Notes under the pieces: model-generated | What the model was told of the DNA's origin: nothing | Database searches by the model: none | The model's input: only the letters and a program-made list of their open reading frames with translations | Shown: positions 14,001-55,259 of the stretch, one piece after another | Position numbering within the stretch: position 1 is the stretch's first letter | Layout: the number at the start of each line of letters is the position of its first letter | Program-made: the position numbers and the translations under genes | From: Mesaphorura yosii | Taxonomy: Eukaryota; Arthropoda; Collembola; Poduromorpha; Tullbergiidae | Reading direction: 5' to 3' | Length of the DNA: 64,000 nt | Assembly: GCA_009869945.1 (NCBI GenBank) | Contig: WIXG01000003.1 | Location: 558,001-622,000 of the forward strand

Positions 14001-17000
14001 TTCAATTATTTTCACATACAAAATTAACTAGACTTTTGGGTCACATTCCTGTGGTTGTATATTCGTGTAGCAGTACCAAATAGCAAGTAGCATATGATAT
14101 GTATAATCTTGAATTGAGTTCTTGCGTGTCCAACCGAATTATGTACACACAAGAATTTCGAATTTCCATGCAATCGGGTCACGCAGTAATTTTTATTGCT
14201 CCGACTCGTGGTTCGTAGCTTCTCCTATCTGAAATGGAATCGATATTGATTGACGGGCGGCCGAAATACAAAATGTATGTGGCCTTTTCGTTTCTTCGAG
14301 CATGCTCGGCTTCTCGATCGAGAAGCAATTTCAGAATAACAGTCACAGTCGTCGTCAGTCAAAAGGAACAGTCGCTGTCAGTGTCAACGTCAAATTCCAG
14401 CTAAATTACATTCGCAATTGCAATTGTGAGTTTGAGTTGCTGTGCCGCGATGCGATGTGCTGCAAATGTTAAATGTTACATCGTTTTGCTATGCTGCGAA
14501 TCTCCAAGTTCCGATCGACAAGATGTATTATTGACGTTTGTATAAATTTTTGTAGCGAGGGCAGGGCCGGCGTCAGGAGTCACAGAAGTCACAGTCACAA
14601 GTGATGTATGATGGTGACGATGACGCTACACCATGCTACACTTCTTCAGGCAGGCAAGGCCATCACTGATAAGATGCGCTTTCAGCGCAAGAAAGATTGA
14701 ACCCACTTCCACTCGAAGCAAATTGAAAAACTTATGAACGATGAAAATTTGCGACGGAAATTGCTGTTTTCCAATACAAATATTTGCAATAATATTTGCA
14801 CAATTGAAATTTGAGCGAATAGTGATCAAGAGCGAGAAGCGCAACGAATAACAACAAAAGAGCATCGACTTTTTAATAAAAATGACATGATAAATATTCC
14901 ATGCCTTCAATTTCCATGTCGTGTCCTCTTCTTTGAGTCTTTGGTGATGACAATTCATATCGAAAATTTGGTTCTATTTTTCATTACGTATTCTTCCTCT
15001 GCTCTTCTTACAGATAACTGGAAATAATTGGATTCTGGGTCCCGTGCTCTGTGACGTGTGGACCAGCTCCGATGTCCTCTGCTGCACGGCCTCCATTTTG
15101 CATTTGGTCGCAATTGCCGTCGATCGGTAAGTCGGCACAGCAGCTTGATAAATGATAAGTGTGATTCGCGATTCGCGACGGGCGACTCGGGATTTGCGTA
15201 CTTACACGTTATTAATGATCCAAAGTGGGTCGGTCGCTCAAGACTGTCGATTGTCGTCGTCCATGTCATCACCGTCATCAGAACATCATTATTATAATGC
15301 CTTGTCCGTCAAGCAGCGCCCAATCAGCTTGGAAATTTGAAGTAAAGGCCTGGCCTGAATAATGTCCACCATCAAAGGGCAAAGGCGAAAGGAGTACACG
15401 GATCACTTTTCGTTTTCGTTTTTGTAAAGAAATCGTTAAATCGAACTTCCTTTTGGCTAGTTAGTATAGTTAGCCAAGTCAGGCCAAGCCAAGCCAGTCG
15501 GCGAGTCAAGAAGTTTAGAAGAGCAAAAGTAAAGGTCTCGGCGCAAGAGTGAAGAGTGATTTCGGGAAATCCTTTTGTAAAAGCAACCATTAGTCATTCG
15601 ATTGCCTGCCTGCCATGCAGCCATGCTTGTTCAAGTCCGAGCCGAGTAAAGTGAGTAAATGAGACAACAAACGGACGGACGGACGACGGGTGGAAGAAAC
15701 GGCCGATAATGGGCGATAGACCAGGGCTCAAAGCTCAATTTTGATCTCTCTTTTCCATTATCATTCACTTAACCACGCTATTACGCTATTAATGTGCGCG
15801 TTCTCGTCGCTCGTGGCGGCCCCTCCTGAAAGGTCACTCAAAGGTTGATCTGATCGAAAATCGACGTAATGCATTCACATTTAAATTATTACCATCACCA
15901 TCTCGTACGTACAGATACTGGGCAGTCACGGACATTGAATACATTCGCTCGCGCAACCGTTCCCGAATCAACACGATGATCCTCCTCGTCTGGCTCGTCG
16001 CCGTCGTCGTCTCCATCGCGCCCATTCTGGGCTGGAAGGACCCTGAGTTTTATGTGCGTGTGGAGGTCGAAAGAAAGTGTTTAGTCAGTCAGGACGTTGG
16101 GTAAGCTACACGAAACGCTGCTACTTCGATTAACTGTAAACGTGCGTACGCTGAAGGCACCAATTTTTGAAAATCTAAACGGCTGCATTGCAGGTACCAA
16201 ATATTTGCGACCTGTGCTACGTTCTACGTTCCTCTTTGTGTGATACTCCTTCTGTACTGGAAGATATTCCAGACGGCTCGTCGGCGGATCCGCCACCGTC
16301 CCGGCGGAGCGGGCAGCGCCGGGAGACCTGCTTCCAAGGAGAAGAAGGTCGCCATTACCGAAGAGATTTCCTCAACCCGGGTAGAAGGTGGGAACGGAAG
16401 TGGTGAAGCTGCGTCCACGATTGAACAGGGTGAAGGTGCCGCCAGCAGGTCGAGCACGAGTGAATCACACACACATCAGCCCACAACCCAGTCCCAGGCG
16501 TCCCCAATTACAAATACGAATACTACGAACAACAATCAGGCCAATACGAAGCACTATTTTCATATACAACAGCAACAGCGGGCTCTACAAGCATCACAGT
16601 CGCCGACCTCTCCGACGACAGAGGACGACGACGAAGACGAGGAGGAAGACGTCGAAGGTCGTGGAGGTAAGAAGAGCGAGACGATCGAGTCACTCATTGA
16701 CGCCACAACGACACCAGAAGAGTACGGTGAGGATGAGGAAATGATTGGGCTCGATGATGGAGACGAAATTCATATCTCGACGATAGGCAAAACGGCCACT
16801 TCCTCTTTCACAACCCTCCTCCACCCGCACGGCCCAAATCACATGCCGTATGCCGCCGCGCACTTGCACGGGCAATCTACGCCGGCCAATCACATGCCCG
16901 AGTCACCAGTGATTAACGTGATTGAAGCTGCAAACACAACGACGACGACGGCGCCCGTGGCGATGGATTCGCCACCGGCAGACAGCAATAACAAGGCGCA

Positions 17001-17496
17001 TGAAGACGGAAGTGGGACGATTGCACTCGAAACGCTGTCCCCATCCACACTTCTCACGAGCTGCAACACTACTCAATCGAGTCTCGCGTCACCATCGAAG
17101 ATGCTGAAGCCCTCGAGTACGATTAAGAAGGGGAAGAGCACCAAAGAGTCGATCGAGGTGAAGCGGGAACGCAAAGCGGCCAAGACGTTGGCAATAATTA
17201 CAGGTAAGCAAGCTTGTAAACGTCGACTTCACAGTTTTGGCGAGTTTTGACAAAGTAAACCTTTGACAGGTGCATTTGTGGTGTGTTGGCTTCCCTTCTT
17301 CGTCATGGCGCTCCTGATGGCTGTGTGCACGCCCTGCTGGCTCCCTGACTGGGTCGTCACCTCCTTCCTCTGGCTCGGTTACTTCAACTCCACCCTGAAT
17401 CCAATCATTTACAATGTTTTCTCCCCGGAATTCAGGCTTGCGTTCAAACGCATCCTTTTCGGACGGAATTACGGCCGTCGAAGACGTGCAAAGTAA
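5041..17496 (+). CDS. 5-HT1: 5-HT1-like serotonin receptor (class A GPCR), 7 coding exons, 643 aa
   Basis: Coding exons: 5041-5302, 9780-9848, 9939-10003, 15014-15126, 15915-16100, 16194-17203, 17270-17496; phases agree throughout. The start is the first ATG of the frame. Seen: three N-glycosylation sequons (NDT, NAT, NGT) before TM1; TM2 with SLAVADL; TM3 with the amine-binding Asp in SSDVLCC (about residue 152) and Cys145 for the ECL2 disulfide; DRY followed by WAV; GWKDPEF after TM4; SQDVGYQIFAT into TM5; CWLPFF in TM6; NPIIY in TM7; a short basic tail. TM4-TM5 closely matches arthropod 5-HT1 receptors, which couple to Gi and lower cAMP. The third intracellular loop is about 300 residues, Ser/Thr/Glu-rich and wholly in exon 6. 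Ligand is inferred; another biogenic amine is less likely. Confidence 0.93.
5303..8468. other. First part of receptor intron 1, no further gene seen
   Basis: Sequence after the GTAAGT donor at 5303. Open frames here are short and lack splice or family support. Short tandem words occur, for example a CAAGT pentamer run near 6013-6030 and TGGCT pentamers near 7719-7738. Confidence 0.55.
8469..9477 (-). CDS. Unknown secreted, dibasic-rich protein nested in receptor intron 1 (3 exons, 271 aa)
   Basis: Coding exons on the minus strand: 9477-9339, 9224-8828, 8748-8469. Phases 1 and 2 match at both introns, the donors are GTACGT and GTAAGT, the acceptors are TTGTAG and TTTCAG, and the sum is 816 nt. 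The N terminus is a plausible signal peptide with core IVFLLIIV, cut after SCAA. Residues about 47-70 hold the only two mature cysteines ([13 protein letters not shown], ten residues between them). A Tyr/Pro/Gly/Asp-rich stretch follows, then a basic His/Pro/Arg part with several RR and KRR sites and no transmembrane segment, ending RPWPRP. This fits a secreted precursor or extracellular protein; I do not recognise the family. The cysteine spacing only loosely recalls an insulin B chain and there is no A-chain motif, so I do not call it insulin-like. Confidence 0.7.
10004..15013. other. Receptor intron 3 (5 kb), no gene seen
   Basis: Bounded by TCC|GTAAGT and TTACAG|ATA. Several 80-127 codon open frames are present on both strands, but none has a splice chain, family motif or supporting context. 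One of them, 11276-11659, begins with a hydrophobic stretch and is discussed under rejected items. Confidence 0.55.
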
Positions 17497-27700: not shown

Positions 27701-30700
27701 CCGGTCGCGTGGCGGCAGCGGTGACCTCGGCACGAGCGCGACGAGCCCGAGCATCGCGGCGTACAGGAGGAGCAGGGATGCGGTGAGCAGGGTGACTTCA
27801 CCACCCGAGAGGGAGGTTGTTCCGTCGAGATACAATTCGGGAGCGTCTGCTTCCAGCATCTCAACACCAAACAACACGTAAGAACCACGCGATAAGCAAA
27901 AATGCGTAAGCCAGTACAATAAAACACATGTTGCCGGTCCCACTCGTCAAGCCGGCTTGCTATGAAGTCCACTTTAAAAGATTCATTCGGGAATTTAAGA
28001 AATAGTTCGGCTGGGCTCGAGGATATTGTTTGTGTAGTACTTGTTCTTGTAATGTTTTCAGTGCTTTTCTCCTTGAGCGATTACGTAATGCTTAACGGAA
28101 CGGAAAACGGAGACTCAAAGTCTCCAAGTCTATCCAAATCCTTTCATTTCCTCGAGCTCGTCGTCCTCGCTAAGCACCTAAGCCTTTTAATAATGTAACA
28201 AAGCAGAGCAGCAGCAGGGCATGGCAGTTAGAGAAACTAATGTAATCTTTGAACATCATCACATTATTATCATAACAAAACATCTCCAAGCGCTGCCATT
28301 ATTACACATTAGGCATTACGAGACGAGAGTTATCATTCTCCTACAATGTAGCGAGTTTTAAAGTAGTTTCAGCACTTTCAGGACTGACTCAATGAGAAAA
28401 AGTAGAAGTTGGATACGCTGGCGCTTGGGTTATCTTGACTCGGTCGGCATTTGGTATCTGTTCAATCTGTCTTGTCTCTTTCTCTGTTCTCTACTTTTCG
28501 CTTTTGGCGTCTCAATTAACTGCAGAATCAGAACAGAAGACAAAAGGCGAACAGACAAGTTAATATTAACCAGGCCGAACTTCTTTGCGGCTGACGTGCA
28601 TTAATAACGTCTAACGCGGTCATGGCGTCCACATGTTTTGTATCGGAATGACCAGACCAATTCAAATGATTATTGAGGTTTTGCGCGAGCACGATACAAA
28701 TACGAAGATTGATGAGCCCACTTCCAAGAAATGTGAAAAGTGCGCTCTCGGCGCGATTCTTCGAGCTCGACTTTATTGCGTGATACATTCAATGCTCCTT
28801 TCTTTGCATTGCGCAGTGGCGGTGGCAGCAATTATGGAAGCAGTCGTTACAGCAGCAGCAGCGGCAGCGGTGGCACGGGCGCCGGCGTGACTGGCTCTGG
28901 GTCGGACTACGGAGCGGGGCTGACCCGCTCCCGCACGGGCTCCTCTCTCGCGTACAGCTCGCCGCTTGACTCTGTCGGAGTGGACTCGGGCGTAGGCGCC
29001 TCGGGCCGGAGCAGTGGAGCCTCGGACACCTCCTCACGCTACAACAAATACTTGAACCGCTCCCGCCACACTTTCGACGACGATGTGGGTGGCCTCGTCG
29101 GTTCATCCTCGCTCTCGTCCCCGTCCTCCTCTGCCGGACGCTATGGTACTGGTTCTAGTTATGGACGCTCTTCGTACCTCAGTAGAAGATAAAGCTCGTA
29201 GACCTTAGGATTCTAGGCTCCATACACAAATTAAGAATTACCGATCCGGATTATAATGTAAGTACGCCGCCCGCGCCCAGTTTGAATTAATTCTGTGCTT
29301 TTTTCTCTTTTCCGCGTGCCTTGCCTGCCTTTCTGCGCTGCTCCTTTGTTCGTGTTTTGTGTTTCACACTACACACTGACGACACTTAACTCGACACACG
29401 CTCGACACACTTCCTGTTCGTATCTCTCTCTTTGAACTTCGGATTGACCACGTAAGGCGATGAAGGTCAAGGCTCGCCGGAGCAGCATGCAGGTAGTCCC
29501 TCGTCTGGAGCTGCGAGCGCTCGAATTGCGGCAGTCAAGGACCGGGAGAAGCGGCGGGAGAAGCTGGCCAAGTCCAAGTCCAGTGCTTCGATCGGGCATG
29601 CAGTTTCGTTTGACGACGAAGCGTACGTCATTGGAGAAAGACGCAGTTCGCTGACTCGCCGCCCGAGCATTGGCAGCGCGAGCGGCGTGAGCATTGCTGC
29701 GGGCCAGGCTGCTGGGCGTCGTAAATCGACGAGCACGGCGGGCGAGATTATCCCGAGCAGCGATGACTCGGCCAGTCTCAGCTCCTGGGCGAGGTACCTC
29801 AAGAACAAGTACGGAAAGGGTCAGTCCAAGTCGCTGGACCGACGACTGAGCGTGGACAATGGGATCGCCAGTGTCACTGCTGGTGGTCTCGGTTCGCCAG
29901 GCCTCGGCTCGCCTCGCTCCTCCATCAGCGGGCCAAGCACGACGGCCGCCGGTGGCAACGTATACTTGAGCAAAAAGAAACTACTCTTCAAATTCGGAAG
30001 CCGAGGCTCTGATCCGGGCTACTTTACGTGGCCAAGAGACGTGTCCGTGGGCCCTGACGGACAAATTGTCGTTACTGACTCGAGCAATCACAGAATTCAA
30101 GTTTTTAATGAACAAGGAGCATTCATTTCTGAATTTGGGTCGTACGGGTCAGGAGACGGTGAACTCGACTGTCCAGGTGAGATAAGTTTAACTCGTGAAC
30201 ACTGAGCTGGTACTGAATTCATTAGAAGGAGTCATTTAGCCTATGTCATTGCCAATTTAGCTGGAGTCTGCGTTAATCGCATTGGCCAGTTCATAATTTC
30301 AGACCGCTACAACCATCGCATTGTTGTTTTGGATCCAAGCGGAAGGTTTCTCAGGTAAATTCCATTGTCCATAAACTGCGCATTCGCGTTTTTGCTAAGG
30401 AATTTTACTGGGCAGAATGCGATTTATACCGTTTATGCGTGATTGTGTACAGGGCTTTTGGAAGCCAAGGTACGACGGACGGACGCTTTAATTACCCTTG
30501 GGGTAAGTTTCTTCATTATAAACATTCGGGAAATAGATGTCAGTTTGATAGACGCCTCATTTTTGCGCGCAGGTGTGACGACTGACTGCTTGGGATTCAT
30601 TTTTGTGTGTGATAAGGAGAATAATCGCATCTGTGGTAAGTTTTCAACGCTTTCTCAATTTTCGCTAAGTATGCTTTTTAGCTGATCGAGTGTTGAAATT

Positions 30701-35241: not shown

Positions 35242-38200
35242 CTACTTGACAATCTTATTCTTAAGTGCTGACGTCAGTGTCAGTGGAGGAGTTGCGCCTA
35301 TCGTCGCGCCCGATCCCGAAGTGTTGGTGGCCGAAGCAGACAGCGGTGGGTGGAGGTGGAAGGTCGCTGTCGACATCGCATCGAGTGGATCATCCAAATC
35401 CGCATCGTCTTCACTGCCAAATATCTCTCTCAAGTACTCTGGGACGTACGGGCCTTGTTGGATTACTTGATTCTCCGCAAAGAAACCTAGAATGACAATA
35501 AAGTGGGATTCAAATTAGATTTCGGTAAATCGGGTTATGCAGATGAATGAATGCGGACTGAGGCCCTCGAGCTGCGGCGGCATGGCTAATAATTGGGGAA
35601 TGAGGCTGCGCTGCGGCTTGGAGACATGAATGAGTGGGATGAAGAGAAGATAAGATGTCTCAAGATGAAAGACAAGCAGTCTGAGTCTGTCCTTACCTGG
35701 AGTGCTCACTTCCACGCTTCGCGGCAACCCACGCTCGAGTCCCTCCAGCCAGTACGTTGCCATTTTACCTTTTCCCTGTGAATTGCGAATAGAAATAGCA
35801 ATACCAAAATGAGATTAAAATCAAAGACAAGATGCAAGAGGTAGGCAGCCAAATGAAAATTTTGAATCTGGCAATCTGGCTCTCATCTTTTTGCTCGCGA
35901 CCAGACGACGATGCGATTAAATCGAAACAAGTTTGAAAAATACCATACTGAGTATAATTTCTTTGAAGATTACGCCTTTTCCTACCTTAATATCCACAAA
36001 CCCTCTCATCTGTGTAATAAATCCACCAATCTCGTCTAAATATATTTTTGTATCCTCCGTGATATGGATCCTCATCGCTGTAGATTTGCAAGCAAGAAAT
36101 TGCAAGAACAAGAACAATTGCAAATTAGATTTATGCTTCACATTCGAGTCGCTTGCATTGCAATTGGCATGGATGAATGCGTTGCTTTGACGAGACAGAG
36201 AAAGGTAAGGGAAAGGAGAAATGTGGCGTGCCGAGTGCTGATGTGCTGGAGGACAATTTAGCTTAAGGATTCCGGCGTCTAAAGAAGAAATGCCTGCAAG
36301 ATGCTTTGGAATGTGAGAAAAAGTACATCAACGCAAGACACAAGACGCAAAATGCGCAGGCAAGCCAAGTTGATGATGATCCGACACTCAGACGAATAAA
36401 AAAATTCTAAAATCCAGCCTAAAAGGGAAATAAATGGGAATTTTTGGTGAAAGTGAATAAGTGACTGGATTACGTGTTATTATTATTAGACAGGCAGCAC
36501 ACGAAAAGTGTTTTTGGGCTCTTTATTTGTACTACAATATTGTGTTTCTTTTCATCCCGATCCGCAACACTTGTCCGCGTGGCGCGTACTGAGTCCTTTA
36601 TGAGAAAAGTTACTTTCTCCAGCCCAAATGCGTGCAGCAAGCAAGTATACATGCATGCAAATAAATAAGTCTCAGCTCAACCCTGACAATTTATTTCTTT
36701 CAATTGACTTAGCCACGAAGCGCTCTCGGTATGGAGAGGCTGACTTTGACTTTGACTTACGTTCTCCCGTGCTGAAGACGCAAGCGATGCGAGCCCGAGG
36801 CAGCATAAAAGAAAAATAATGCAAATACATTCTATATTTGTGGGATTCACTTTCACATTCGCTTTCGCATTCGAGTTCTCACTCTTGTTATTATTGGGAA
36901 CATATTTATTAGCAACAGTATAATGACAGCTGGGAATGAGAATTTTATTCATTACACGCGGGCACGGGTGTCGGGCGTGTGAATTCTTCTGCTTTCTGCA
37001 TGAATTTTGTAAGGATTCGCCAGTGCGATTCAGCAGCTCACACCCGCATCGAATTTATTCAGAATTCAGTACGTGTGTGGTGTGCTAATTTAATTACCAT
37101 TTTATTCATAGTCCCCCCCCCACTGAACCGTAAGGCATAGCAAGGCGCTGCACGGTTGATTGACTCGACTCACCTTTCCATTCTGCTCGCCGTGTTGATG
37201 CTGTCTCCGAATAAGCAGTACCGAGGCATTTTTGTCCCGACCACGCCGGCGACGCATGGACCTAGAATTTCACATCAGAAATCACACTCATGAAGAGTAA
37301 GGTTCAAGAGCCTTTCGTTTCAACTTCACAGTCTCACCTGTATTGACGCCGACTCGAATTTGAAGTTTTTCCTCTGAAACCATACAAGATACAAAATACA
37401 AATGAGCATTTTTAATTTCGCGTTTCGCCATACCACGCTGAAGCAGCTGCGCTAGCGTGCGTGTGTTAAATTTCACATGACTGCCTCGTGCCGTGCTGCG
37501 CCGAGACCGAGTACCAGGTAAATATTTATAAACCCTGCCTGGCCTGGCGTAGGCTATCACGCGTGATCTCCGGCGTTGCTTATGCAAATCACAAATTGCT
37601 GGAAAGTGGAGATGGAATGCGTACCAGGTCTGTGAGGGATTTGGAATGTTTGAACTCCAGCAATCAAATCGAGTGCCATTGTGCCTATTTCACTCGCATG
37701 CTTTGATCCGTTTCGGTCCGGTAATCCGGATACGACCTGAATTAGAATATCACAGGGCTGTTCAGAGCCACAACACACAGGGCCAAATGCCTGTCTATGG
37801 CTAATTCACTAATTCCTGACCATGCTGTCAGGGTACGACTCACTCACCATGTACGCGTCGCCGATTGTTTCAACCTGTAGAAAATTACAAAACGGGACGT
37901 CAAAGGAAACCACAACCACATGAGACTTGGACAAGAGCTGTCTCTCGAGTGTCATCTCTCGATCCTCAGAATCCTAACCTTGTATACATCGTAGTGCTCG
38001 ATTCGCGAATCGAAGAGTTTGTAAAGTGAATTCAGCATGATGACAATCTGCGGGACGAAGAACGAAAAGAGAAGATGATCAAGGCAAAGATGATTAATGG
38101 CGAGCGGGCAAAAGAGAGCGTGAAAGTAAAGTGTAAATTTTAAATTGTTCCGCATGACGTAATCAATACAATACGAATACGAATGCGAGCTTACTTCCAT

Positions 38201-41200
38201 GGGCGAACTGTTCGATGACAGCCTCGTGAAGCTGACGATATCCGAGAAATATATCGTCACCTACGCCACAGTGTGCGAGAGCCACGTCGATGAAGCGTGA
38301 AGGCCCGACAGGATGAATTCGGGAGAAAGCAAGAAAAACAATGAAACAATGGAAATAAATCATTTTCACATAAAAACAACTTAAATTAAACTTCATAAAA
38401 TAAAATTGATGATTTCCGCGTTGTGCGTTCGATCCGCACTTTCATTCATCGGAGCATTTGTGTTATGCAAGGGCTAAAAATGTCTGACAACTTTCTCCCA
38501 GCAGCACTGCGACTAAACCAAGTTTTTATATTAGAACAATACATCATTCGGGATGATGCGTCGACGTGTGCTGCTGCTGTAAGAAAAGGATAGCTAGGAA
38601 AGGGCAAGAGACAAAACCTGCAACTGCAAACCTGCCGCAAGCGTTCACGTACCGATTGAAACATTTCAGCCGGAACTTGCTTTTTTTGTCTCAGCTGCTT
38701 CACGACCGTAGGTGGCAACATTTGCGAGAGCAGACGATCTGACTTTTTCTTCTCGCGACGGAGCGCGACGGTCCGGCGATTCAGTCCGGCTGCGTACAAC
38801 TGCAGAAAATGGTTTACAGGCTTGTTCCTATGATTGTGGTTTAATTAGTCCATTAGCATAACCGCGACCGCACGCACAAACCTGAATAGTTTTCGTGATG
38901 CTCTTGATCAAAAAGAGGATAATTGGAGAGATGCAGAGCACGATTGTCAGCAGGGCTGCGGCGAGCGCCTGCTTTCCCCTTGCGACCACGATTTCGTCCG
39001 CAACTCGCTTACTGCAAAGCAAAGAAATAGTGTAGCGTATTGCTTGTATTATTCATTGCTCGAGAATTGCCCGATGCTGATGGGAACTTATGGCTTATTG
39101 CATATTTTAAAATGCATACGCGTGGAGAAAGTTTAACATGAGAAAGTCATTAGGCAATGAACTGGAAAATGAGGCTTAGCCGACGAACATCTGTTACATT
39201 TTTTACTGCTTGCTTGTAGAGAATATTACTTGGAATGGTATTATGAATTTCTTGGAAATGGGAATAAAAAGAAGCTTTAGCTCTTGAATTGGTAATGAAA
39301 TGGGATGAGGACGATGAGAAATAAAGATGATTTTAGCATGATAAAGAATCTCTTGAATCTCGCTCCACTCACTTGATTGTATCGCGCAGTTTAAATTGAT
39401 AGCTTCTTAGTTCATTAATGTACAGGTTCATTTTCTTGTAATAGTCCTCCGCGTCCGCCGTGTTGGGCTCGATCGTCCGTTTTTCGTAGATCCGCTGACG
39501 CCTGGAATCAATGGCGGGCCAACGCCAAGTTCTGAGACATTGCGATTACAATTTTTGTCGTGTTCCCCTGTAATGTGAATGCGTGTACCTGTTTTCGAGC
39601 TCGTCATAAAAGTCGAACGCCTTCCCAAAGTGTTCGTAGTCTCGAAGAATGTCCAGTGAGAAGCTCTGCGTCGCATTCAGGTAATCTTCCGCGAGCGAGT
39701 CGTACTTGACGAACTTGACGAACGATTTAGCCGACAGGGTTCCTTTCCCATAGTAGTAGAGACCGTAGATCATCGAGATGGAATAATTTTCAATGGACCG
39801 AATTATGTTTTTGTAGGCAATCAAAGTCTGGAACGCGGCGGCAGTGAGTTGAAACAGAAAGAGAACAAAAGCAAAGAATACAGAGTAGAAGAAAGTCATT
39901 TGCATAAAATTGCATGCGTTTGCGTTTGCTGATCTTAATTAAAATGGAAGTCTGCGAGCTGCTGCCTGCCGCTCGTCAAGCCTCTTTTCAGTTTGATGAC
40001 ATGAAAGAACTCGTCTCGTTCGCTTGCTTATTGTGTGAGGTCCGCCGTGGCACGGCAGTCTGTACCTTTTGTATGTACTTTATATTCATTTCACTCAGAT
40101 TACTGATTAGCGTTTCTCGTTACTGCCATTGGCATTGCCAATGCCAAGCTTTGATGGAAACTAATTTCCAAACCAACCTACGATGCACTGACGTCCAAGC
40201 AGGCAGGCGGGCATGAACTTCAATGCAATCTGTTTTGATTCCCAGATTAGGATTCAGGGTTCGGAATTTCGTGGAAAGCAGTTAATGAATAGATACTCTT
40301 CGAAATTTCAATCAAGTTGTTTTTCAATTGAAACTCAACATCCACACAAAGCAAAGCATTAAAGCAGACATAAGTCGTGAGGGCATAAACCATAAACAAG
40401 GTCATTTTGTCGTCGTTTGCGCCAAAAATCTGCCTCGGCAGGAGATTTGCTTTGTGTTTAATCTTTCATGGAAGTTTTTGAAATTCTCGTGAAAAGTGGA
40501 AGACAATTCTAGCACACACTCATGTCTCATGCATGAAGCTAAATGGCATGCTAAAAAGTGATGCATAATTTTACTCGTACCTTCCAAACTCCCGTCGTGG
40601 ACGTTTCTCGAATTCTCTGAGACAGTTGGTCCAAGATTAGATCGTTCGCGACGTTGTACCTGGAAAGAGAAGATTAAAAACGTTACATGAATGGCAGAAG
40701 CACAGAAGCAGGCAGATATCAACTCAGAATGAATGAAGATGCGTTATTAAGTCTTCAGCCTCCGCGTCCGAGACTGCGAAGCGAGTCGGACGGAGTTCCA
40801 GTATCCAGTTTCGAAGATTAAATTAACAAGCAACGCAAATATTTAAAAGCGTGGGTGGGCAGCGCCAGCGTGTTTGCTTTGGCAGTTTGCAGTTCAATTT
40901 AGTTCATTCTCGATACTCGCTCGACCTGCTGCTTCAGTGATCTCTATGATTTTTCACTTGTTTACAGTATGCTGTCCTTTGAAGTTTTAATTTTTAATTT
41001 CTGCATGAAATTGAATATTTTGACAATATTTAGCAGTTGTACCGAAACACAAGCTGGAAACTTGTGCTTGGTTTATGTTTGGTTATTTTTCTTCCAAAAC
41101 TCCACTTGTACAGTCTGAAAGTCAAGCTAAGTCAAGCCGGTAACTTTTCCTTCACTTCAAGAAACTCAATCATTCACTTCACTCCATTAACATTAACTTC

Positions 41201-43113
41201 CAGTTCGACTATGAGTTAGAGTTCGAGTTGGACTCCTGAGAGTGTCGCCACGAGCAGTAACTTCAACTTGGTAGCTAAGAAGAATCGATGGGAGCCTGAC
41301 TGGGACTCAAGCCCACAAGTTTGCTTTGCATTGCTCAACTTTGGTAATCATCCATGCATGCTCTGGAGAAAAGTTTTTGTTTTGAAGATGAGCAGCGGAG
41401 CTCCATAAAAACTAATTTAATTTCTATTTTTCAAGTGATACAGTACACCAAGAGCAAGACCGCACACGCACACGTGCAGCCAGTCGCAGCCACAGCTGGA
41501 GTCGAGAACTTACCAGATCATTTCTTCCAGTGCTAAATCATCGGCCTCGGTCGAATTGGAGCTGCTACTGAAATGAAATTTAATTGGTGAGAGTACGAGA
41601 ACAAGAAATACGAACCCGAGTCGTCGATGAAGCCAAGATCAATTAAACTCAAAGCAAGACTCAAGATCGAAGAATCCAGACTGGAATCTGAAATCTACAT
41701 ACGCATGGTTGACCAACATCGATCTGCAGATGAACTTACGTAAGATTTAGAATCCTATTTCGTCTCAACCTGAAATGAACAGCACAACATTCAGCAGTAT
41801 ACATTGTACTGTTGTATGCGCGGCGCAGATTCAGGCAAGTGGAACCGACATGCAAAACAGATTACGGGACAGGAATAAATCTTGGCGGATTCAATACGAA
41901 TGCTGAAAACTTAAGAAAATGTTGCAATAATTCTTTCTCGCCGGCCATGTCTGACTGAAATTGAATCCCACACTCAATACAAACGCAAAATGTAAAGAAG
42001 GACTGCTGCTTACTGGCCAAAATCCTATTTTCATAACTCAAGACTAACCCGAGTGTTCGGAGATGCTGAGAGAACGTCGTCTTGCCCCGGAGTACGTGAT
42101 GGTCCAGAAAAACCGTTGTATTCTTGATTATCATGTCTGTCTCGGTGAATTTGTCTTGGAGCCGATCCCTGAAAAGCATGTGTCTAGAAAAATCAAACCA
42201 ATATTGCTGATCGTTGATTAGATTTTCGAGTGTCTGTCAACAGCACAGGACAGGCGTGAGATCGTCAGTGCCCAGTGCGAGTCGAATTTATTGTACATGA
42301 GAAATGAACTGGCTGGAAATTGGAATTGGGTCCTGTAGTCTTGTACCTGCTTCCAACCGTGAAGATGTAGAACGCAGTGGTTCCACGTTCGCCTTGCAGT
42401 GACTGAATAATTGTCGTGGCTTCGACAGTCAGATTAATCTGGTGTTGAATTTCGTGTGCTTCGCTCAGCGCAAAAACGACGGAGGACAGAAGGGTCGAAT
42501 TCTGAATCACCAACGCCACGATTGGGATGAAGGGCAAAAATAGCATCTGTGGGAAGGAGCCAAGCAAAGAAAGCCAATGCAAAAGGTTCAAGTACTCCGA
42601 TTTTAGTGTATGAATTGGATTTAGCCTACAGTCTAGGGGCTACTTGCACAAGACAAATGAGTGATCGAGTGATTAATTATGTTTAGGTCTAACCAATAGA
42701 ATATGTACTTGGATAATTTGTATGCGGTTGGTCGAGGCTGTGTTTCCAATGCATGTTAGCCCGTAGCACCCGGTCTTGATGGAGACGAGGCTGTTGGACA
42801 TGGACGAGTCTTCGAGGGAGGCCATCGAGTTATGGGAGCCGGCATCGCCAACACCGCCGCCGCAGCCTTCGCCTTCAACGTCCACAATCGCGTTCTTCAG
42901 AATGGGAATATTCTCCTTCTTCCCAAGCTGAACACCCATTTGCGCACTTCGCAGGGCGTGTGAAGTGTCCTTGGGGCTCGCGTTGTCGTGCCTCAGCTTC
43001 GTAGCACTCAACTCAAACTCTGTCTGGCCCACGCCTGTACCCGCGCCGGAAGAACGTTTTGTTTTCATGTCGATGAACTGCACTACGCCGCAAGTGCTCA
43101 GAAAATGGCCCAT
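35242..43113 (-). CDS. NIT-domain membrane guanylyl cyclase 1 (20 coding exons, 785 aa)
   Basis: Minus-strand exons: 43113-42709, 42546-42347, 42168-42049, 41769-41740, 41567-41514, 40659-40581, 39827-39589, 39501-39373, 39011-38882, 38799-38653, 38260-38195, 38047-37979, 37874-37848, 37736-37625, 37373-37338, 37261-37174, 36771-36761, 36077-35986, 35775-35697, 35486-35242. All phases close (2358 nt). Order: Gly/Ser-rich N terminus; TM1 (about 135-152); NIT domain ([14 protein letters not shown]) with several N-glycosylation sequons; TM2 (about 435-456); helical [14 protein letters not shown] linker; class III cyclase domain about 512-680; 100-residue tail. Catalytic signs: metal Asp in YFSDIVSF, guanine-selecting Glu in VETIGDAYM and Cys in [15 protein letters not shown]. 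It should turn GTP into cGMP as a dimer. There is no kinase-homology or haem-NO domain. ATG at 43068 is an alternative start. Confidence 0.88.
36761..36771 (-). other. 11-nt microexon (exon 17) of NIT cyclase 1
   Basis: On the minus strand the sequence reads CTTCAG, then CACGGGAGAAC, then GTAAGT. It joins phase 2 of exon 16 (GAA AG) to phase 1 of exon 18 (CG ATG) and spells S-T-G-E-P inside ASRMES-TGEP-MRIHIT. The paralogue has T-Y-G-E-P here without an extra intron. No other reading joins these exons in frame. Confidence 0.85.
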
Positions 43114-43905
43114 GAAAGCCAAGACAATTGGTACTTTATATTATAATTGCAATTGTGGCGGAATTGTTGACTTGACTTTGACTTGTGCTGTCTGTCGATG
43201 AATGGATCAATGATCAAATGATCACATCATCAACAATTTCTATTGGTTTCGCGATTTCGGAAGGAATTCATGTATGGTTGTGATGGTGGTTGGTGGCTCA
43301 TGGATCTGCAATCCAGACCATTAAGCGAAGCCACCGCCGCCGCTGCCGTGCATCCATGTTGAGAAAGCAGAGGAGAGGTACGTCGCATTATGTGATCATT
43401 AGTGTTATTATTAAGATTATTAGCAAAACTTTTTCCGTAATCCTAGCACGTAAGAAATTTTATTTAATGATGCGATCAAATATCATGAATCCGTGTGTCG
43501 AACACGAGATTTGAGATAGGATGAGCCCACGAACGAACGCCAGGCAGGCAAAATTTTCTCCGCTGTGATCCATATTCGTGATTCTGCGAATGCGAATGTG
43601 AATGCGAGCCAATTAAAATATGGATCTTTGATCTTTCAATCCCAAAACTGGTGAGCTATCTCTCATGTGGTTGGAGACTGGGGTTTAATTCGAATTCTTT
43701 AATAAAACTTCGCTGTGGGTTGAGATTATACATTGGTTATTTGGCATTCACTTACAACAAAGCACAGAAAGAATGTAATAAGATCAATACAAAAACAATA
43801 ACAATAAATTGGCAAATGGCAAAAACAAAAGCAAGAAAGCAGACAAAGAGCATGCGTTCATGAAATTCAATTAAGGTGAAGCAACCACAGTCCCCGCTCC
43901 CGCAG
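43114..43905. other. 792-bp spacer between the two NIT cyclases
   Basis: It holds the 3' flank of cyclase 2 and the presumed promoter and 5' UTR of cyclase 1, both read on the minus strand. TTTATT at about 43459 (AATAAA on minus) could be a distant poly(A) signal for cyclase 2. No coding segment is seen. Confidence 0.5.
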
Positions 43906-46900
43906 TCACTCGACGTCGTCATCACAGAGGTCGGCCATGTACGCCGGATGGTGGTTCTCGAAGAATCCCGGCGTCTCCAGCTCGACTGCTCGTCCAATCG
44001 GTGCTACTTTCGAGATCAGCCAGAATGTGGTCATCATGCCCTTGCCCTGCAGAAACACAAGAAACACGTATAAGCACGAGTCACGAGTCACGATTCTTGT
44101 AAATTATTCCCAAGCCCAAAATGAAAGAAAGCTGGCTAAATGATTATGAGACTCGTGCGTCGTGTGCCGCTGCGAAATAATTGAAACTTTAATGCAACAG
44201 CGGAGGAGCGACTCACTTTAATATCTGTCATTCCACGACTCTCCATATTAAAGCCACCAATTGCATCCAGCGCCAGCTTCATCTCCAGGCTTATATGAAT
44301 TCGTAATGCTAAGCAGCAAGGGAAAGACAAGAGTACATAATGATAAATTCATAATTGTCAATTTTGGGATATATGAAATTACATACGTTCTCCGTAAGTT
44401 TCCATACGCGAGGCCGTATTGACTGTGTCCCCGAATAAGCAGTACCGAGGCATCTTCGTCCCGACCACACCAGCAACCACGGGGCCGGTATGCAGGCCAA
44501 TTCTACGTCGTGGACGAGAGCAAAGGACAATATCAAATTCCTTTTATTGATTGCAGTCGACGTTCGACATAATTTTCTGCTGTTTTCTTACCGTATCTGC
44601 AATTTTTCACCTGAGAACACAAAATATGAACACACGATATAATTTCGTCAGTCTTGCAAGTCAATGCCAACACAATCACTGTGAAGACTCACCTGGTCTT
44701 TTTGGGATGGGAAACAGCACAGAGCCCGCCAACAGGTCCAGACTCATGGTTGCAATCTCCGCGACGTGCGCGTCTCCTGTGACAGGAAACACAAATGCTC
44801 ATGCCTGAATTTAATTAAATTTAATGATGACAGGCAAAGTATACCATTGGGTTCAGGCAGGCCACTGGCTACCATGTACGAGTCTCCAATCGTTTCCACC
44901 TTGTACACATCATAACGCTCAATTCGCGCATCAAACAACTTGTAGATCGAGTTTAGGAAAGTCACAACTTCAAGCGGGCTGCATTCCGCAGCGATTTCAG
45001 TGAATCCGACAATGTCGCTAAAGTAAATTGTGACCTGATCAAACGTTTGCGCTTGAACGGTGCGTTTCTGTTTCAGCTCAATTGCGACGGACGCTGGTAG
45101 CATTTGGAAGAGCAGGCGGTCGGATTTCTTCTTCTCCTTCTTCAGGGCCTCGGCTTTTAGGAATAAATTCAGGGCAAAGAGCTGAATAGTCGTAGTAGCT
45201 CGATGCACTAGGAAAATGATGATCGGAGAGACGATCAGCACAAGAATCAAAGCTCCGATTGTGATCATTGCTTGTGTGTTGGCGTCTTGCAACCTGTCCT
45301 GCACCGCGTCTCTGCACAAACCGGTGCAAAACTCATTTTAAAGGCAATTGAGGTAGTCTTTGCCTCGGCGGTTATGAAACTTGCTGCTTGCCTGATTTTA
45401 GCCCTCATCGTCAATTGCATTTCACGCAGTTCGTCAGTGTAATTGCTCATGATGTCGTAGTACCGAATTGCTTCCTCCAGATTTGGACTTTGTCTCTCAT
45501 TCAGCAGAATCTTGAGTCGCCTGAGTCCAAAAGTACAAATGCACGCATTAACGCATTAGCAACCTGAGGCATTAACTCAACTCGTATCTCATAATTCATT
45601 GCACTTAAACTAAAACAAAGCCAAACTGTGACTCTGACTCACATTTGTTGAATTTCATGCCAACTTCGCATTCTCCCTGGAATGCCGTCGTAATAAAACT
45701 TGGCAGCCGAAGCCATTTCAATGGACGAATTTATGTACTCGGTTCCCAGCGTGTCGTGGCGCACGTACTTGATGTAATTCGGTGCACTCAAACTTCCCTG
45801 CAACGCAACGCAAGCAAATCGTAAAACGTAAGTAGTCGAGTACAGTGTGTAGAACATTCCATTCCGAAATTAATTAGACGCTTAATTACCCGTCCGAAAT
45901 AATTGATTCCGTAAACGACCGAAATTCCCAGGTTCTCCACAGCCCTTAGAATATTCTTGTACGTGATCAAATGCTGGGAAAGAGAAACGAAAGATCGGCA
46001 AGGTAAACAAGGTTATTACCGCTTTTAATGCTCGAAAACGTGTTGCGCCAGATTTTATAGCATTTAGACAGCACTTCGCGGAGTCCATAAACTCAGGGTT
46101 TGGCTTTGGCATTGCGTATTGTGTTTTACGATAATATCTCACACATATAAAAGTCATCGCATTAAATGAATAGCGCATAAAAATAAAAATACATAATTCA
46201 TAAAATATTCTCGGTTATTCTCACAGCATTACGCATAAATTATTACCCTCCAGACATTGCTCGTGTTGGTCTCCTTGATTTCGTTGGTGAGGTATTGGAG
46301 CATCATCTGATTTATCTTTGTATCTGAAATATACACAAGCGAAAACTCATGAACATCGAACGCAGGCATTAGCATTGGCAGTAATAATCTCAATTTGCAT
46401 TTATGTAAATTCTCCTTCGTTCTCGCTTACACCAGTCCATGATATCCGCCACAGTGTTGTCTTCTGGGCTGATTCTTTTTCTGTACAATGCGCAAGATAT
46501 CAAAGTTTTATATTTTCAATACATTTCACTCTCACAATGCTGTGCTGTGCTTTGTGCTGTTAACCTGAATTCATCGAGTCGGATCTGAAATCGGAGTTTT
46601 GACTCAAATATTCGGTTCACGTCCTGCACTGCAATGTTGTCGGGCCAGACGACGATGCTCTCGAGCGCTTCATCTGTCTGATGAAAACGATCACTCAAAT
46701 TGGTTCTGGAAAAGTACAGGTTACATTACATTCCGCATTACACGAGCGCTGGTGCTGCTGCTGTTACTGGCGCGTACGAATTACGAAGAGTAAATAGCGT
46801 GCTTTGCTTTTGCTTTACTCTGGAGAAAATTGCTTTCTCCTTGACTCGTGGCACGCTGCGCCGCAGTTGAGCCGCGCGCTTCAAGTTAATAGTTAAGAGT

Positions 46901-48664
46901 GGTGACAATTTCCACTCTGTTTCCAGGAACAGGAAACAATGAAAACGTATGAGTGATCCCGGTTTCAGGCCGAATGTCGAGGAAGTGTATGGAGAAAGTT
47001 GAGTACAAAGGGAAAAAGTTCGCAGGTTGTTTCTTTCATGTTTAATAGATAAGTTTCTTCCGCTTCAGTCTGTCGTCTGCCCATGAAACAATACGGAACG
47101 GCCGCACGGTCGTGGCGGTGGCTCGAAAGAAAGTAGTAACGCCAGTAATTTAATACATGCAATGAAACCAACAACGTACCCTTTGTACAGCGTCTCCGTA
47201 AATACGAAGAAGGAAACTTCTGCCCTCTCGTTCTGGATCTCTGCACCAAAGCACAGCAGGATAAATGTATGTAGCTGATTAACTCCGAAATTTGGAGTCA
47301 GTCCGAATTGCATCTGCCGTTGCAGTGTCAAAGTATTTATGTGCTAAGTGCTTGCCTGAGACGAGCCGCCCGAGATTAAGCGTCCCTTGAACCTGAAATC
47401 ATAAAACAACAAAGCGAAATGCAATGAAATTAAAATCTGGGCTGGACGTCCGAGCAGCGGAGCCGTTCAGGGCAGTGGGTAGTTCATTAAAATTCGAAGA
47501 GCGGTGGTGCAGACTTCATTTTATGGCATATTTTGATATTTTAGTGACCTAGGCGCAGCAGTCTCCGAGTTTTAGCCGTGATTTGATGACCAGGCATTTA
47601 TTACCACTGAAATGTTAGCTTTACACCTGCAGCTATAATATTTTTAACGACCACAATCATCTCTTCGGATTCCAAACGAATTCTGGTACGGGATAGAATT
47701 CGTCGACAGGTTCTCCGTTTTATTGTCCGAAACAAAGCTCCTGACTTGACCTTGAAGGAGTAGAAGTGCAATAAGCAAGAGAGAACTAGTCTCACCTGTC
47801 TGTCGATGTCCAGTTCCTCCGCCTGGTACTCCAGAACAGTTTCAAGGTGCACCACATTCTGAATAATTAATGCGATAATCGGGATAAACGGAAGAATTAT
47901 CTGCAAAACCACGAATACGAACACGAACCTTTAAACTTAAAATCATAATTTCACAGAAATCACTTGAAGTCAACGGCTTTCCCTGCGTAGGAGCTTACCA
48001 TTTGAATCATCTGCCACTTGCGAGCCTTTGGCGGGCTGACACACCAATTCCTTTGCTGCAAATTCAGATTATTACGCGTAACAGTAATCAGTTAGGTTAT
48101 GTCTGCACATACATTTAATGAATTAACCTTTGTGTGCAAATTAGTCGACGTTTCACTCCCAAGCGACCCTGTCTCGATCCGAATTTCGTGCTGCTGGTGT
48201 TGGGAATGGTGGTGTCCCTGTCCTTGCCCGTGTCCGTGTCCGTGATCCTGTGTGAACAACCCCAACGTCCCCTTCTCCTGCTGCTGCAGTGGTACTGCCA
48301 CCGTCGTCTCGTACACCTGACTGACCTGCCCACGACCGTAACCTTGGCTTCCTGTGCCCGATGCCGCCGATGGCGGCTGCAGTTCAATGAGAGGCCCATC
48401 TCCACGCTCGCGTTCACGCTGCCCTCGTCCGCTTCGTTCTCGATCTCGATCTCTGTCATGATCACGACCTCGATCATGGTCGCGATCGCGATGCTTCCTG
48501 CCTCGCCTTTGACTGGTGTGCACGACGAGCTGCTGTTGCTGATCTCCATTGTAAGGGGAAAGCGGGATCGTCACCGTGTTCGTCGTCGAATTGTTCGCAC
48601 TCCGGACGACGGGTGCGCGCCCGATCTTGATGTTTCGTCGAAACGCGAAAGCTTTAGAAAACAT
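43906..48664 (-). CDS. NIT-domain membrane guanylyl cyclase 2 (17 coding exons, 783 aa)
   Basis: Minus-strand exons: 48664-48128, 48055-47999, 47900-47796, 47392-47356, 47240-47180, 46705-46565, 46480-46431, 46323-46247, 45973-45890, 45797-45643, 45520-45392, 45311-44845, 44776-44693, 44610-44592, 44502-44387, 44308-44217, 44046-43906. All phases close (2352 nt). Exon 1 encodes a 179-residue cytosolic N terminus with Arg-Asp repeats and a His/Gln/Gly-rich run. Then TM1 ([13 protein letters not shown], about 199-211), NIT domain ([14 protein letters not shown]), TM2 (about 493-514), [14 protein letters not shown] linker and cyclase domain ([36 protein letters not shown]). The guanine-selecting Glu and Cys are present. 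It lies head-to-tail with cyclase 1 and shares several intron positions with it, so the pair is an old tandem duplication. Confidence 0.9.
44592..44610 (-). other. 19-nt microexon (exon 14) of NIT cyclase 2
   Basis: Minus strand: TTCTCAG, then 19 bases giving (G)EKLQI(R), then GTAAGA. Phases 1 and 2 match the neighbours, and the residues are needed for the conserved EKLQIRIG segment. Confidence 0.85.
45312..45391 (-). other. GC-AG intron 11 of NIT cyclase 2
   Basis: The exon ends AAA ATC AG and the intron begins GCAAGC and ends TGCAG. No GT donor gives the required phase 2 join to [12 protein letters not shown]. Confidence 0.75.
47241..47355 (-). other. GC-AG intron 4 of NIT cyclase 2
   Basis: The exon ends CTC GTC TCA G and the intron begins GCAAGC and ends GTGCAG. 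The nearest GT (GTCTCA) gives the wrong phase. The exon-intron junction CAG|GCAAGC is identical to that of intron 11. Confidence 0.75.
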
Positions 48665-49626: not shown

Positions 49627-52600
49627 TTAGAGTGTGCACATTACCCAAATGGTTAACAACGCCACGACTGCGACTAGCGGCTTGTGGATTAATGAGCAGC
49701 ACATTTCAGGAAACGGGGCCACCTCTCCTTGAGGCTTTGTACTTAGCAAGAATGGAAATCTTTCAAATGGCAGTTTATGCCCAAACTTTCTTTGCCAATT
49801 TCTCGCGTAAGCATCCGTAATCCTGGAGATTATGACCCGTATTCCTTTAATCCATGCATTTTGAAGCGCCTGTGCCTGTGGTATCGTTTGGCGCCGTGGA
49901 TCGTCGGCCACAATTGACTGACATTTCATATAACAGAAAACGATTGCAGTACTCGATTCTTCAATTTATTGTTCAACAAAGTATAAAATTCCATATCTGA
50001 TAACAATAACCAATAGTCATATAGTCAATGGTAAGTGTATAGCATAAATATAAAAGGGCAAATTAACTTAGCGCTTAGCATTTAGCTTAGCTAGCACTGA
50101 TCATTAAGAGGCGCTTACGGGCGGAATAGAAGGGTTTGGCAAGCGTATGGGTGCAGACGAAAGCGACGGAGCAGTCGGCTCCCCCACAATGGAGCAATAA
50201 TGGATACCTGGCCCCATGCAGCTCGCGAAGCCGAGCACGTGAGGAATGTACGACTGATCCTGGACGCCAGTGAGCAGATGCGCGAAGGGACCACGGGAAT
50301 AAATCGGGACATCGTCACCACCGTGTGTCTCCGACAGCAACGGCAGTCCAGTCATTTGCATGTAGTCGGGATGCTCCAAGTTGTCGTTCGTCAAATCGTA
50401 CCGGTCGCCATTTTCTTCGGGATGCTTGTAGCCTGGTCCATTCGAGTAGCTGAGTGTAGTATACGGGAGTTCGTCCATGTCGGAGATGCCAGCAAAACCG
50501 AGGATCGGATTGCCCCGTTGAGGGTAGCCGCTGATTGTCATCACATGAGCTGCGTAACGTATTAAAAATGAATTAGAAAACCCGCACACTGCAGTTTTTC
50601 GTCAGTACAAAAGTTCAATCGCTTACAGTGATCTGCAGTCACAACGATTAGCGTGTCATCTTCTCTAGTCATCGTACTCGCGGTCTGGAAATCGTCGCAC
50701 AAAATGTAAACAATCATTAAATATGGGACAGTAATATCGAAATACCAGAACTCTGGTCTTTCTGGTATTGTAATTGTCAATGCGGCACACACCTGAACAG
50801 CTGCGTCCATGCTGATCGTTTCAATGAGCGCCTGAAATTGAGAAATGGTAATTTAATTAGCATAAACTGTGCGTATAAAATCGATCGCGGCGAAGCTTGG
50901 GCGCCTCACCTTCTGCGCCTTCGTCGAGTGATGCGCGTGGTCAATTCGTCCTCCTTCAACAAACAAGAAGAATCCCTTCGGGTTTTGACTAAGAATCTCA
51001 ATAGCAATTCTAGTCATTTCTGGAAGGCTTGGATCTTCATTTGGAACGGAGTCCAGCACGTAGTCCATATGATCATAAGCGAATAAACCTGACAGCCATT
51101 AATATGGAACTTTACATAAGCAATCTCTTTCTGCATATCCTGATTCTGCGATATGAGTTCATACCGAGTAAATATTTGGTCGCAGATGTGTTCAGTGCCA
51201 TCAACTGCTCCCTGTTATGCACATAAACTCCTCCGTCCGCCCTCTTCAAGTCCTTCCAAGTCTGAATGAGATTCTTCCCGTCGCCTCGTCGACCGGGTTG
51301 CTTCGATTCAATATCAAGGACGTTCCTCGGCGTAAGCTCACGGCGACCGCCTCCCATTATTACCTGCATACGTTAGTAAAATTAACAATTAACAACCTGG
51401 TTTCAAAGGCGGCAGCCGCGCCTGCGCCACGACTTACGTTAATTTTCTTTCCCGTTTCGGAGAGAATGAGTTGCTCAGCAATGTCGTCGCACTTTTCCGG
51501 ATTCTGGCCTGATGTTCGAATCATCTGGTCACTCTCCCAGTCCCTGAACAATTAACAGGAAAAACTTATAAATGCAGTTAAATGCAGCAAACTTTAGGAT
51601 CAAAGTATTAATTAGTCACCTGTCAGCAATTTTAGCGTACGTCCCAGCTGGAGACGCGTGTGTCACTCGAGTCGTGGTGATGACGCCAGTTGATTTACCG
51701 GCGGCCTGACAAAATAACACATCGTTTACAATGTTTTCTTGAGTGTAATGTCAGTACTGCATGGGTTGGTACATCGGTAGAAGATTAGTCGAGTAAAAAC
51801 TAACCTGAGCCCATTCCAGAACAGACATTGCATGGTTGCTGACGTTCATCTGGGCATTGCAGTCTCGAAAGTGTACCGCGGGCGTCACTCCTGCAAAATT
51901 ATACACGCCTCAGTTTAATATGCACGCAAGACAAGAGCGAATGCTTGCAGGATTCGTCGATCATCAATATTTTTACCGATTGTCGCAATATTCGCTTTTG
52001 TTCCACACAAATACGCTGTAGCAGAGCACCTGCATAATAAACACATAAAATTTTATGACTTTCGAGAGAGGAAAAATCCTTCGCTGACTTTGCCTCTTGC
52101 CTGGTTGTGCTATAACTTACGCTGAATCGGCAACTTGCGAATCCGTGCAAAATGTCTGGAACCAGAAAAAGAATGTTAGAAGACAAGAACAACACAATAA
52201 CCACACCGCCATACACGGACAAGGCAGGGCAGGCTAGGCAGCCACACGAGCTTAATTACCTTGGCTAATCCGGTATGTGGAAATCTCTCGAAGTGGAGCA
52301 GACCCTCTTCGCCAAACGGAAGACCTTCAAGCTGTCCTTTGAGAATTCTCGCTGCGACACACGTCTGCAAGCTCATTCCGTCTCCCAGGAAGAAAATGAT
52401 GTTGTCGGCTTTCTTCTCGATACGCGTCTCGCGCAGTTTGGACATAATGGCGTCCTGCTGCGATTTGTACCAGTGGGAAGCTCCTGAGAATCGTTTCAGT
52501 AACAATTTTGCAATTATACGCGGCTCAGTAATTGAAAGTATATGCTATGCATTGTCATTAGCGTAGAATTTACCTTCGGCTTTAATTGTCCCAGCCCGGA

Positions 52601-54231: not shown

Positions 54232-55259
54232 ATGTTGTCATCAGCCCCATTCTTGATCAGGATTCTGATACAGGAGGAAGAAGTGGAGGTAAGTGGGTGG
54301 TTGCCGCAACTGCTTGCTACACATTTTTAACACTCACTGATTTCGGCCTGAATTTATAGAATACCATGAATACCAGTTCGAAGAGTTCGACCTCCAACTC
54401 CCCAACGGCGACGACAACTGTGGCGGTGAAAGAAGACTCTACACAGAGGCGTATACGTCGTGAAGTCGCCAACTCCAACGAGCGACGCCGGATGGAGGGC
54501 ATTAATGCTGGATACAACGCACTACTGAACTTGTTGCCACGTTCATGTAAACATGAAAAAATGAGCAAAGCTGTCATTCTTAAGTCGAGCGTTTTGCACC
54601 TGTTTCAATTGAAGCGAGATAATGCACAGTTGCGGGCACAAAACTCTGATCTGCAGCGAAAGTTGCTGAAGTTGACCCAAGGTGGGGCGGGTCAGGTATT
54701 GGAAGATGAAGTGGGTTCGGCCATTGCCAAGAAGCCGAAAATAGACTTATCCGGCGTCGTCGAAACCTGTGTCCACGGATTTGGCATTAGTGAAGCAGCT
54801 ACATCAAAAGACATCAAAGAATCCGCACGTGACAATCTGGTGAAAGAACTCATTCATCTTCGACTCCAGTTGGACATCGAACGAAGACAGAGACTTGAGA
54901 TGGAGAAACTCATGGGGTATTCGACATCGGAACCAAAAGTATCAAAATATGCAGAAATTACTCAAGATCAAGCGGTGGCCACTCCGGCGGCCCCGACCAC
55001 TCCAGAGAAACAAGTCACCGTTGCTGAGGGGAAAACTGAAACTACAGCTTCGGAAAGCTCACCACCGGCACCAGCAGACAGGTTTTTCTTAATTTTAGAG
55101 GCAATCAACCGCGTCGAAGGAAAGGAAGTGTTCAAACCTGAGCCTGAGGATGTCGACGGGGAAACTATCATGGACAGATCATCTGCGTCCGGAGCAATTT
55201 CGACTTCGGAGGTTGACGATAACGGTAAGAAGCATCTGGACCCAACTAACTTGTACTGA
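54232..55259 (+). CDS. crp: TFAP4/cropped-like bHLH leucine-zipper transcription factor
   Basis: Exon 2 (54360-55259) holds the whole recognisable protein: Ser/Thr-rich start, basic region RRIRREVANSNERRRM, HLH (INAGYNALLNLLP, then EKMSKAVILKSSVLHLF), a contiguous zipper (LKRDNAQLRAQNSDLQRKLL), a second Leu/Arg helix (ELIHLRLQLDIERRQRL) and a disordered acidic tail. RRIREIANSNERRRM-type wording and the extra helix are AP-4 hallmarks; AP-4 binds CAGCTG E-boxes as a homodimer in the nucleus. An upstream ATG at 54232, with an in-frame stop directly before it, reads 19 codons to a GTAAGT donor at 54289 and splices in frame to 54360 (318 aa). If that exon is not translated, the start is ATG 54366 (297 aa). 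Confidence 0.88.

Follow-up and report, generated by a model that had tools for sequence, protein, structure and literature searches.

Does an animal guanylyl cyclase that carries a NIT sensor domain bind nitrate in the manner of the domain's bacterial relatives? The question is raised by two neighbouring genes of the springtail Mesaphorura yosii, here called A and B, which lie on contig WIXG01000003.1 (assembly GCA_009869945.1) in a window of 64,000 nucleotides (the whole stretch of DNA analysed, positions 558,001 to 622,000 of the forward strand; coordinates below are those of the window unless another contig is named). Each gene encodes a membrane guanylyl cyclase whose NIT domain keeps the helix-1 arginine of the bacterial domains and has lost the Glu-Arg pair of helix 5. 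With one of the two contact arginines left, NasR-style binding of nitrate by A and B is unlikely, and the ligand would not be nitrate or nitrite held in that fashion. The genes and their domains are listed here (TM, transmembrane segment; HMM, hidden Markov model).

43906..48664, minus strand: gene A, NIT-type membrane guanylyl cyclase; 17 exons, 783 aa (exon model; Pfam NIT and Guanylate_cyc)
47844..47900, minus strand: gene A TM1, aa 199-217 (hydropathy)
45392..47365, minus strand: gene A NIT sensor domain, aa 243-477, several exons (Pfam PF08376, 81.2 bits; bacterial-NIT HMM, 49 bits)
45209..45265, minus strand: gene A TM2, aa 494-512 (hydropathy)
44014..45058, minus strand: gene A guanylyl cyclase catalytic domain, aa 563-748 (Pfam PF00211, 214.4 bits)
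35242..43113, minus strand: gene B, NIT-type membrane guanylyl cyclase; 19 exons, 780 aa (exon model; Pfam NIT and Guanylate_cyc)
42487..42543, minus strand: gene B TM1, aa 137-155 (hydropathy)
39373..42411, minus strand: gene B NIT sensor domain, aa 181-413, several exons (Pfam PF08376, 58.6 bits; bacterial-NIT HMM, 39 bits)
38906..38962, minus strand: gene B TM2, aa 431-449 (hydropathy)
35740..38673, minus strand: gene B guanylyl cyclase catalytic domain, aa 500-685 (Pfam PF00211, 221.8 bits)

The two proteins have the same organization, with a NIT domain of about 235 residues and a transmembrane segment on either side of it. Both exceed the Pfam NIT cut-off of 24.9 bits, with E-values (2e-22 for A, 1.5e-15 for B) far above chance; the NIT assignment of an earlier note on this DNA is thus borne out by HMM, and all five parts of the layout that it described (TM1, NIT, TM2, a helical linker or signalling helix (S-helix), and cyclase) were recovered by Pfam and hydropathy. 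The note had also stated that the kinase-homology and haem-NO domains are absent, and Pfam indeed matched neither in A or B, with an E limit of 10 for the kinase-homology domain and the HNOB profile for the haem domain. The sole further match in either protein is to the last 27-34 positions of HNOBA, the helix before the cyclase, and falls below the cut-off. The motifs FSDIV, VETIGD, YCLFGD and NTASRM, which we take to be the catalytic and guanine-selecting motifs, are common to A and B. Conservation is very uneven along the proteins: the NIT domains are 32% identical (72/227), the S-helix and cyclase 64% (147/228).

The NIT domain is predicted to face the cell exterior, since two membrane crossings with the cyclase in the cytosol would place it there. 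The abundance of Asn-glycosylation sequons, offered earlier as evidence for an outside sensor, is a weak argument: by shuffling, the NIT ectodomain of A has 4 sequons against 2.2 expected (P 0.16) and that of B 5 against 2.1 (P 0.03). As the excess in A is not significant, sequon density was rejected as evidence for an extracellular position.

Nitrate-pocket residues

Matches in 5 of 30 and in 53 of 274 genomes, 52 of the latter exceeding the curated cut-off, supplied the bacterial NIT sequences, and 31 of the 37 NIT loci were aligned. The HMM built from these 31 domains yields the scores listed above, and a profile-profile comparison (hhalign) of the A/B pair with 24 bacterial NITs gives a probability of 98.3% and an E-value of 1.8e-14; a search of PDB sequences with the NIT domains alone returned chance-level matches (E 0.11 and 1.9).

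Two conserved arginines have been described at the NIT interface, and placozoan NITs are said to keep the critical residues (PMC7400543). NasR has both arginines of the asymmetric site (PMC8199190); its E175 and R176, on helix 5, are predicted to lie in the nitrate pocket, and Q174 is named on the same helix (PMC7496416). In PDB 4akk, reached via a bacterial NIT-ANTAR-like protein, the sequence G-Q-E-R is found at chain positions 200-203, which with an offset of 27 become G173-Q174-E175-R176, a numbering consistent with the NasR helix-5 assignment of E175 and R176. The second contact arginine would be that of helix 1, as read from the conserved column.

The Glu and Arg of the helix-1 Q-x-E-R motif occur in 31/31 bacterial rows, and both are kept in A and B. 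The helix-5 pair is nearly as constant in the bacterial rows (Glu in 28/31, Arg in 29/31); in both springtail proteins it is replaced by a serine followed by a hydrophobic residue. The placement of helix 5 is identical in six of six MAFFT settings, in the HMM alignment and in hhalign. A third invariant arginine is kept in A (R313), where B has S250 instead.

47224..47226, minus strand: gene A helix-1 Arg251, the kept nitrate-type arginine (alignment to 31 bacterial NITs)
42385..42387, minus strand: gene B helix-1 Arg189, the kept nitrate-type arginine (alignment to 31 bacterial NITs)
45917..45922, minus strand: gene A Ser373-Val374, replacing the helix-5 Glu-Arg (bacterial NIT alignments)
39771..39776, minus strand: gene B Ser309-Met310, replacing the helix-5 Glu-Arg (bacterial NIT alignments)

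The ectodomains of A and B contain no cysteine (count 0 in each), and no histidine is shared between them in the alignment; hence no conserved thiol or histidine haem ligand is seen for NO (nitric oxide). The suggestion that the pair senses NO oxidation products is weakened by these comparisons: the helix-1 motif pointed out in the earlier note is present, while the helix-5 Glu-Arg is missing in both proteins.

Gene structure and cyclase relationships

Genes A and B are arranged head to tail on the minus strand, and both are intact and intron-rich in exon models rebuilt by hand. Each model has a single terminal stop and zero internal stops. The earlier outer limits proved exact to the base (start of A at 48664, end of B at 35242), and the description as two complete paralogues stands as to completeness, while the lengths are 783 and 780 aa rather than 785 and 783. 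The pair is divergent, as had been described, with an overall identity of 42%. An AG acceptor is found at 34/34 introns (16 in A, 18 in B) and a GT donor at 32/34. Seven introns are common to A and B in position and phase, and an eighth is off by one column; these shared positions indicate that the genes most likely descend from one intron-rich gene, and A and B are most likely an old tandem duplicate of an animal NIT-type receptor guanylyl cyclase. Between the stop of A and the first ATG of B lie 792 bases, which contain four poly(A)-like hexamers.

Several details of the models deserve mention. Two introns of gene A are of the GC-AG type (47355-47354 and 45391-45390, minus strand, after exons 4 and 11), and the same unusual donor, GCAAGC, appears twice in the one gene. 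Gene B has a microexon of 11 nucleotides:

36761..36771, minus strand: gene B 11-nt microexon inside the cyclase domain (phase 2 in, phase 1 out; AG and GT flanks)

In the model built from genomic DNA this predicted exon is required for the reading frame and for the S-T-G-E-P motif; the matching residues of gene A are encoded without a preceding intron. The N-terminal tails comprise about 195 residues in A and 130-135 in B and are 25% identical where aligned. That of A (48128-48664, minus strand) is a low-complexity charged tail in which Arg-Asp and His-Gly/Gln repeats are abundant, and the tail of B is unlike it.

With A as the sole query, the closest solved structure of a catalytic domain by sequence is that of NPR1 (278.4 bits), followed by GC-C (232.3) and adenylate cyclase 5 (186.1); no soluble cyclase scores above 171.3. 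A search of the animal's own genome (93.0 Mb, 1127 contigs) for cyclase motifs found seven places, A and B among them. Kinase matches lie upstream of the cyclase at four of the five other loci (C82, C366, C496 and C240; eight of the ten open frames scanned); the locus without one, on C317, stops about 1 kb upstream, at the contig end. HNOB matches occur on C126 and C210, and NO-synthase (NOS) domain matches in exons on C41. The haem-domain cyclase at C210:58500-68400 has PRWCLFGDCVNTCSRMETT where that of C126 has PRYCLFGNTVNLTSRTETT, and resembles the atypical (oxygen-type) insect soluble cyclases.

A tree was built from the two NIT-cyclases, five receptor-type, two haem-type and six bacterial cyclases, with exon edges stitched roughly. 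A and B are sisters, separate from the receptor and haem-type cyclases of the same genome (ultrafast bootstrap, UFBoot, 84). Placement of the pair within ordinary receptor or soluble cyclases, which the earlier note had named as contrary to its reading, did not occur in this tree, which comprises own-genome and bacterial sequences and no other animals' NIT-cyclases.

Own-genome searches with each NIT domain recovered A, B and one more place, C581:1592-1732, a degenerate stretch of about 41 codons that is 83% identical to a single exon of gene B and is interrupted by a stop. Two intact NIT-cyclases were thus found in the genome; a very divergent third may have escaped the exon-by-exon search. 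A search of the genome with the Pfam NIT profile gave no match, and its control was equally silent; the exons are short, so this is not evidence of absence. A tblastn search of plasmids with the NIT domain of A gave no match, and no relatives of the pair were found in the genome_contigs or viral_contigs collections, which do not cover animal genomes.

Possible signals and competing explanations

The reading that we favour, with some but by no means full confidence, is that A and B are an old NIT receptor-cyclase duplicate whose ligand is not nitrate or nitrite bound as in NasR, and whose two copies probably read different signals, since the sensors (32% identical) have diverged much beyond the enzymes (64%). 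A ligand at the junction of the two helical bundles of the NIT domain would shift TM2, and this shift, relayed by the signalling helix, would set the cyclase dimer and hence the level of cyclic GMP (cGMP). As to the ligand, some other small molecule is marginally to be expected; NO or its products, detected by another chemistry, would be a doubtful candidate, and an absence of any ligand, with A and B constitutive or controlled by a partner, appears improbable. Bolder, and rather less likely than not, is the idea of a re-tuned arthropod NIT receptor: half of the bacterial nitrate pocket would have been lost earlier than the duplication or at about the same time (in both copies serine stands at the Glu site, and the Arg site holds a hydrophobic residue), and the copies would now convert two different non-nitrate signals into cGMP. 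Several points weigh against the favoured reading. The pocket is derived from an alignment at 17% identity. The helix-5 Arg is also missing in 2/31 bacterial NITs, which means that its loss need not abolish binding, and of the 19 columns that at least 87% of bacterial rows conserve, 8 are retained in A and 7 in B, so that the helix-5 loss may be one of many. The comparison was with bacterial NITs alone, and the loss may be special to the pair or common in animals. Several nodes of the tree, with its roughly stitched exons, are weak (UFBoot 29-77).

An alternative is that A and B do sense NO made by the animal's own NOS, or nitrite or nitrate, through the NIT domain, and raise cGMP in response. 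The NOS-domain exons on C41 and the helix-1 Arg kept in both proteins are consistent with it, as are the proposal of nitrogen-oxide sensing for animal NITs (PMC1592074, PMC7400543) and the finding, known from a commentary, that in an annelid NO signalling to ciliary photoreceptors requires NIT-GC1 (PMC10584369). The loss of the helix-5 Glu-Arg in both copies, ectodomains with neither cysteine nor an aligned shared histidine, and the presence on C126 and C210 of haem-type cyclases able to serve NO make this unlikely. The poor retention of conserved bacterial columns, together with long and differing N-terminal tails, would also fit a NIT domain that is a degenerate spacer, with A and B constitutive or controlled from the cytosol or by the choice of dimer partner. 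We think this quite improbable, as the NIT score is well above the cut-off in both proteins, the frame is open through all NIT exons, and Q-x-E-R in helix 1 is common to the pair. It is hardly credible, finally, that A and B are receptor or soluble cyclases of the ordinary kind that only seem to lack their usual domains through faults of assembly or annotation. Their catalytic domain is of the receptor-cyclase type, but NIT occupies the position of the ectodomain, the DNA is unbroken and every exon follows in its proper place, and neither a kinase nor an HNOB match is found in A or B, against kinase matches at four of the five other receptor-cyclase loci. This explanation was rejected on the Pfam results and the own-genome controls.

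If the favoured reading holds, the consequence concerns how such proteins are named. It is mainly the bacterial relatives of the domain that have led animal NIT-cyclases to be proposed as sensors of nitrate, nitrite or NO; a pair with the NIT domain and the enzyme but half the contact residues gone indicates that the label is not transferable unchecked. As two naturally occurring variants, A and B could be used to test what animal NIT domains bind, and they would give this arthropod, which has NOS and haem-type cyclases too, a second possible input to cGMP that is directly testable.

Genomic surroundings and known systems

The neighbour-gene scan took in 10 of the 22 open frames of at least 150 aa outside A and B. 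Exons of three further genes were recognised by Pfam, and a fourth frame gave a match below the cut-off.

16171-17247, plus strand: open frame of 359 codons, with a match to rhodopsin-type G-protein-coupled receptors below the cut-off (E 0.0026)
29456-30205, plus strand: exon of an NHL-repeat protein (Pfam NHL, E 1.1e-10)
50107-50601, minus strand: exon of an alkaline phosphatase gene (Pfam, E 1e-21)
54360-55256, plus strand: exon of a basic helix-loop-helix transcription factor (Pfam, E 8e-11)

The cuticle-protein domain Chitin_bind_4, typical of arthropods, has at least 66 matches in the genome, which makes the genome look arthropod, in agreement with the host proposed earlier from the letters of the window. 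A search for arthropod 7SK gave no match, and its control also gave none.

Drosophila CG33958 is a NIT-cyclase. One paper lists it only as an inferred membrane cyclase, grouped among those 'uninvolved in NO reception' (PMC10248080). Insects and sea urchins were reported in 2006 to possess a third class of animal guanylyl cyclases, which combine a signalling helix with a NIT domain outside the cell and were proposed to be receptors of extracellular nitrogen oxides (PMC1592074); by 2020 NIT cyclases with the domain between two transmembrane segments and a C-terminal cyclase were reported from placozoans, molluscs, annelids, arthropods, priapulids and others (PMC7400543). In annelids, NIT-GC1 is required for retrograde NO signalling to photoreceptors (PMC10584369, a 2023 commentary), and NIT-GC2 serves as a marker of photoreceptor cilia (PMC11412693). 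The architecture is therefore already known in animals, and the addition made here is the comparison of pocket residues; searches of the open-access literature turned up no study of these helix-5 residues in arthropod NIT-cyclases, and PMC1435932, on insect receptor cyclases, yielded nothing on NIT.

A and B share with the animal NIT receptor cyclases the NIT ectodomain, the two flanking transmembrane segments, the signalling helix and the receptor-type cyclase; they differ in forming a tandem pair whose sensors are only 32% identical and, unlike the placozoan NITs, which are said to keep the critical residues (PMC7400543), in having lost the helix-5 contact Arg. With NasR of Klebsiella oxytoca (PDB 4akk) they have in common the NIT domain, by profile comparison, and the helix-1 Q-x-E-R, but they are membrane proteins with a cyclase output in place of the RNA-binding ANTAR domain, and they have no helix-5 Glu-Arg. 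The catalytic domain and the helix that precedes it resemble those of NPR1 and the other kinase-homology receptor cyclases, whereas a NIT domain takes the place of the peptide-binding ectodomain of NPR1 and no kinase-homology match is found. A class III cyclase with a signalling helix is shared with the soluble (haem) cyclases as well; from these A and B are set apart by their two transmembrane segments, the lack of an HNOB match and a lower catalytic similarity.

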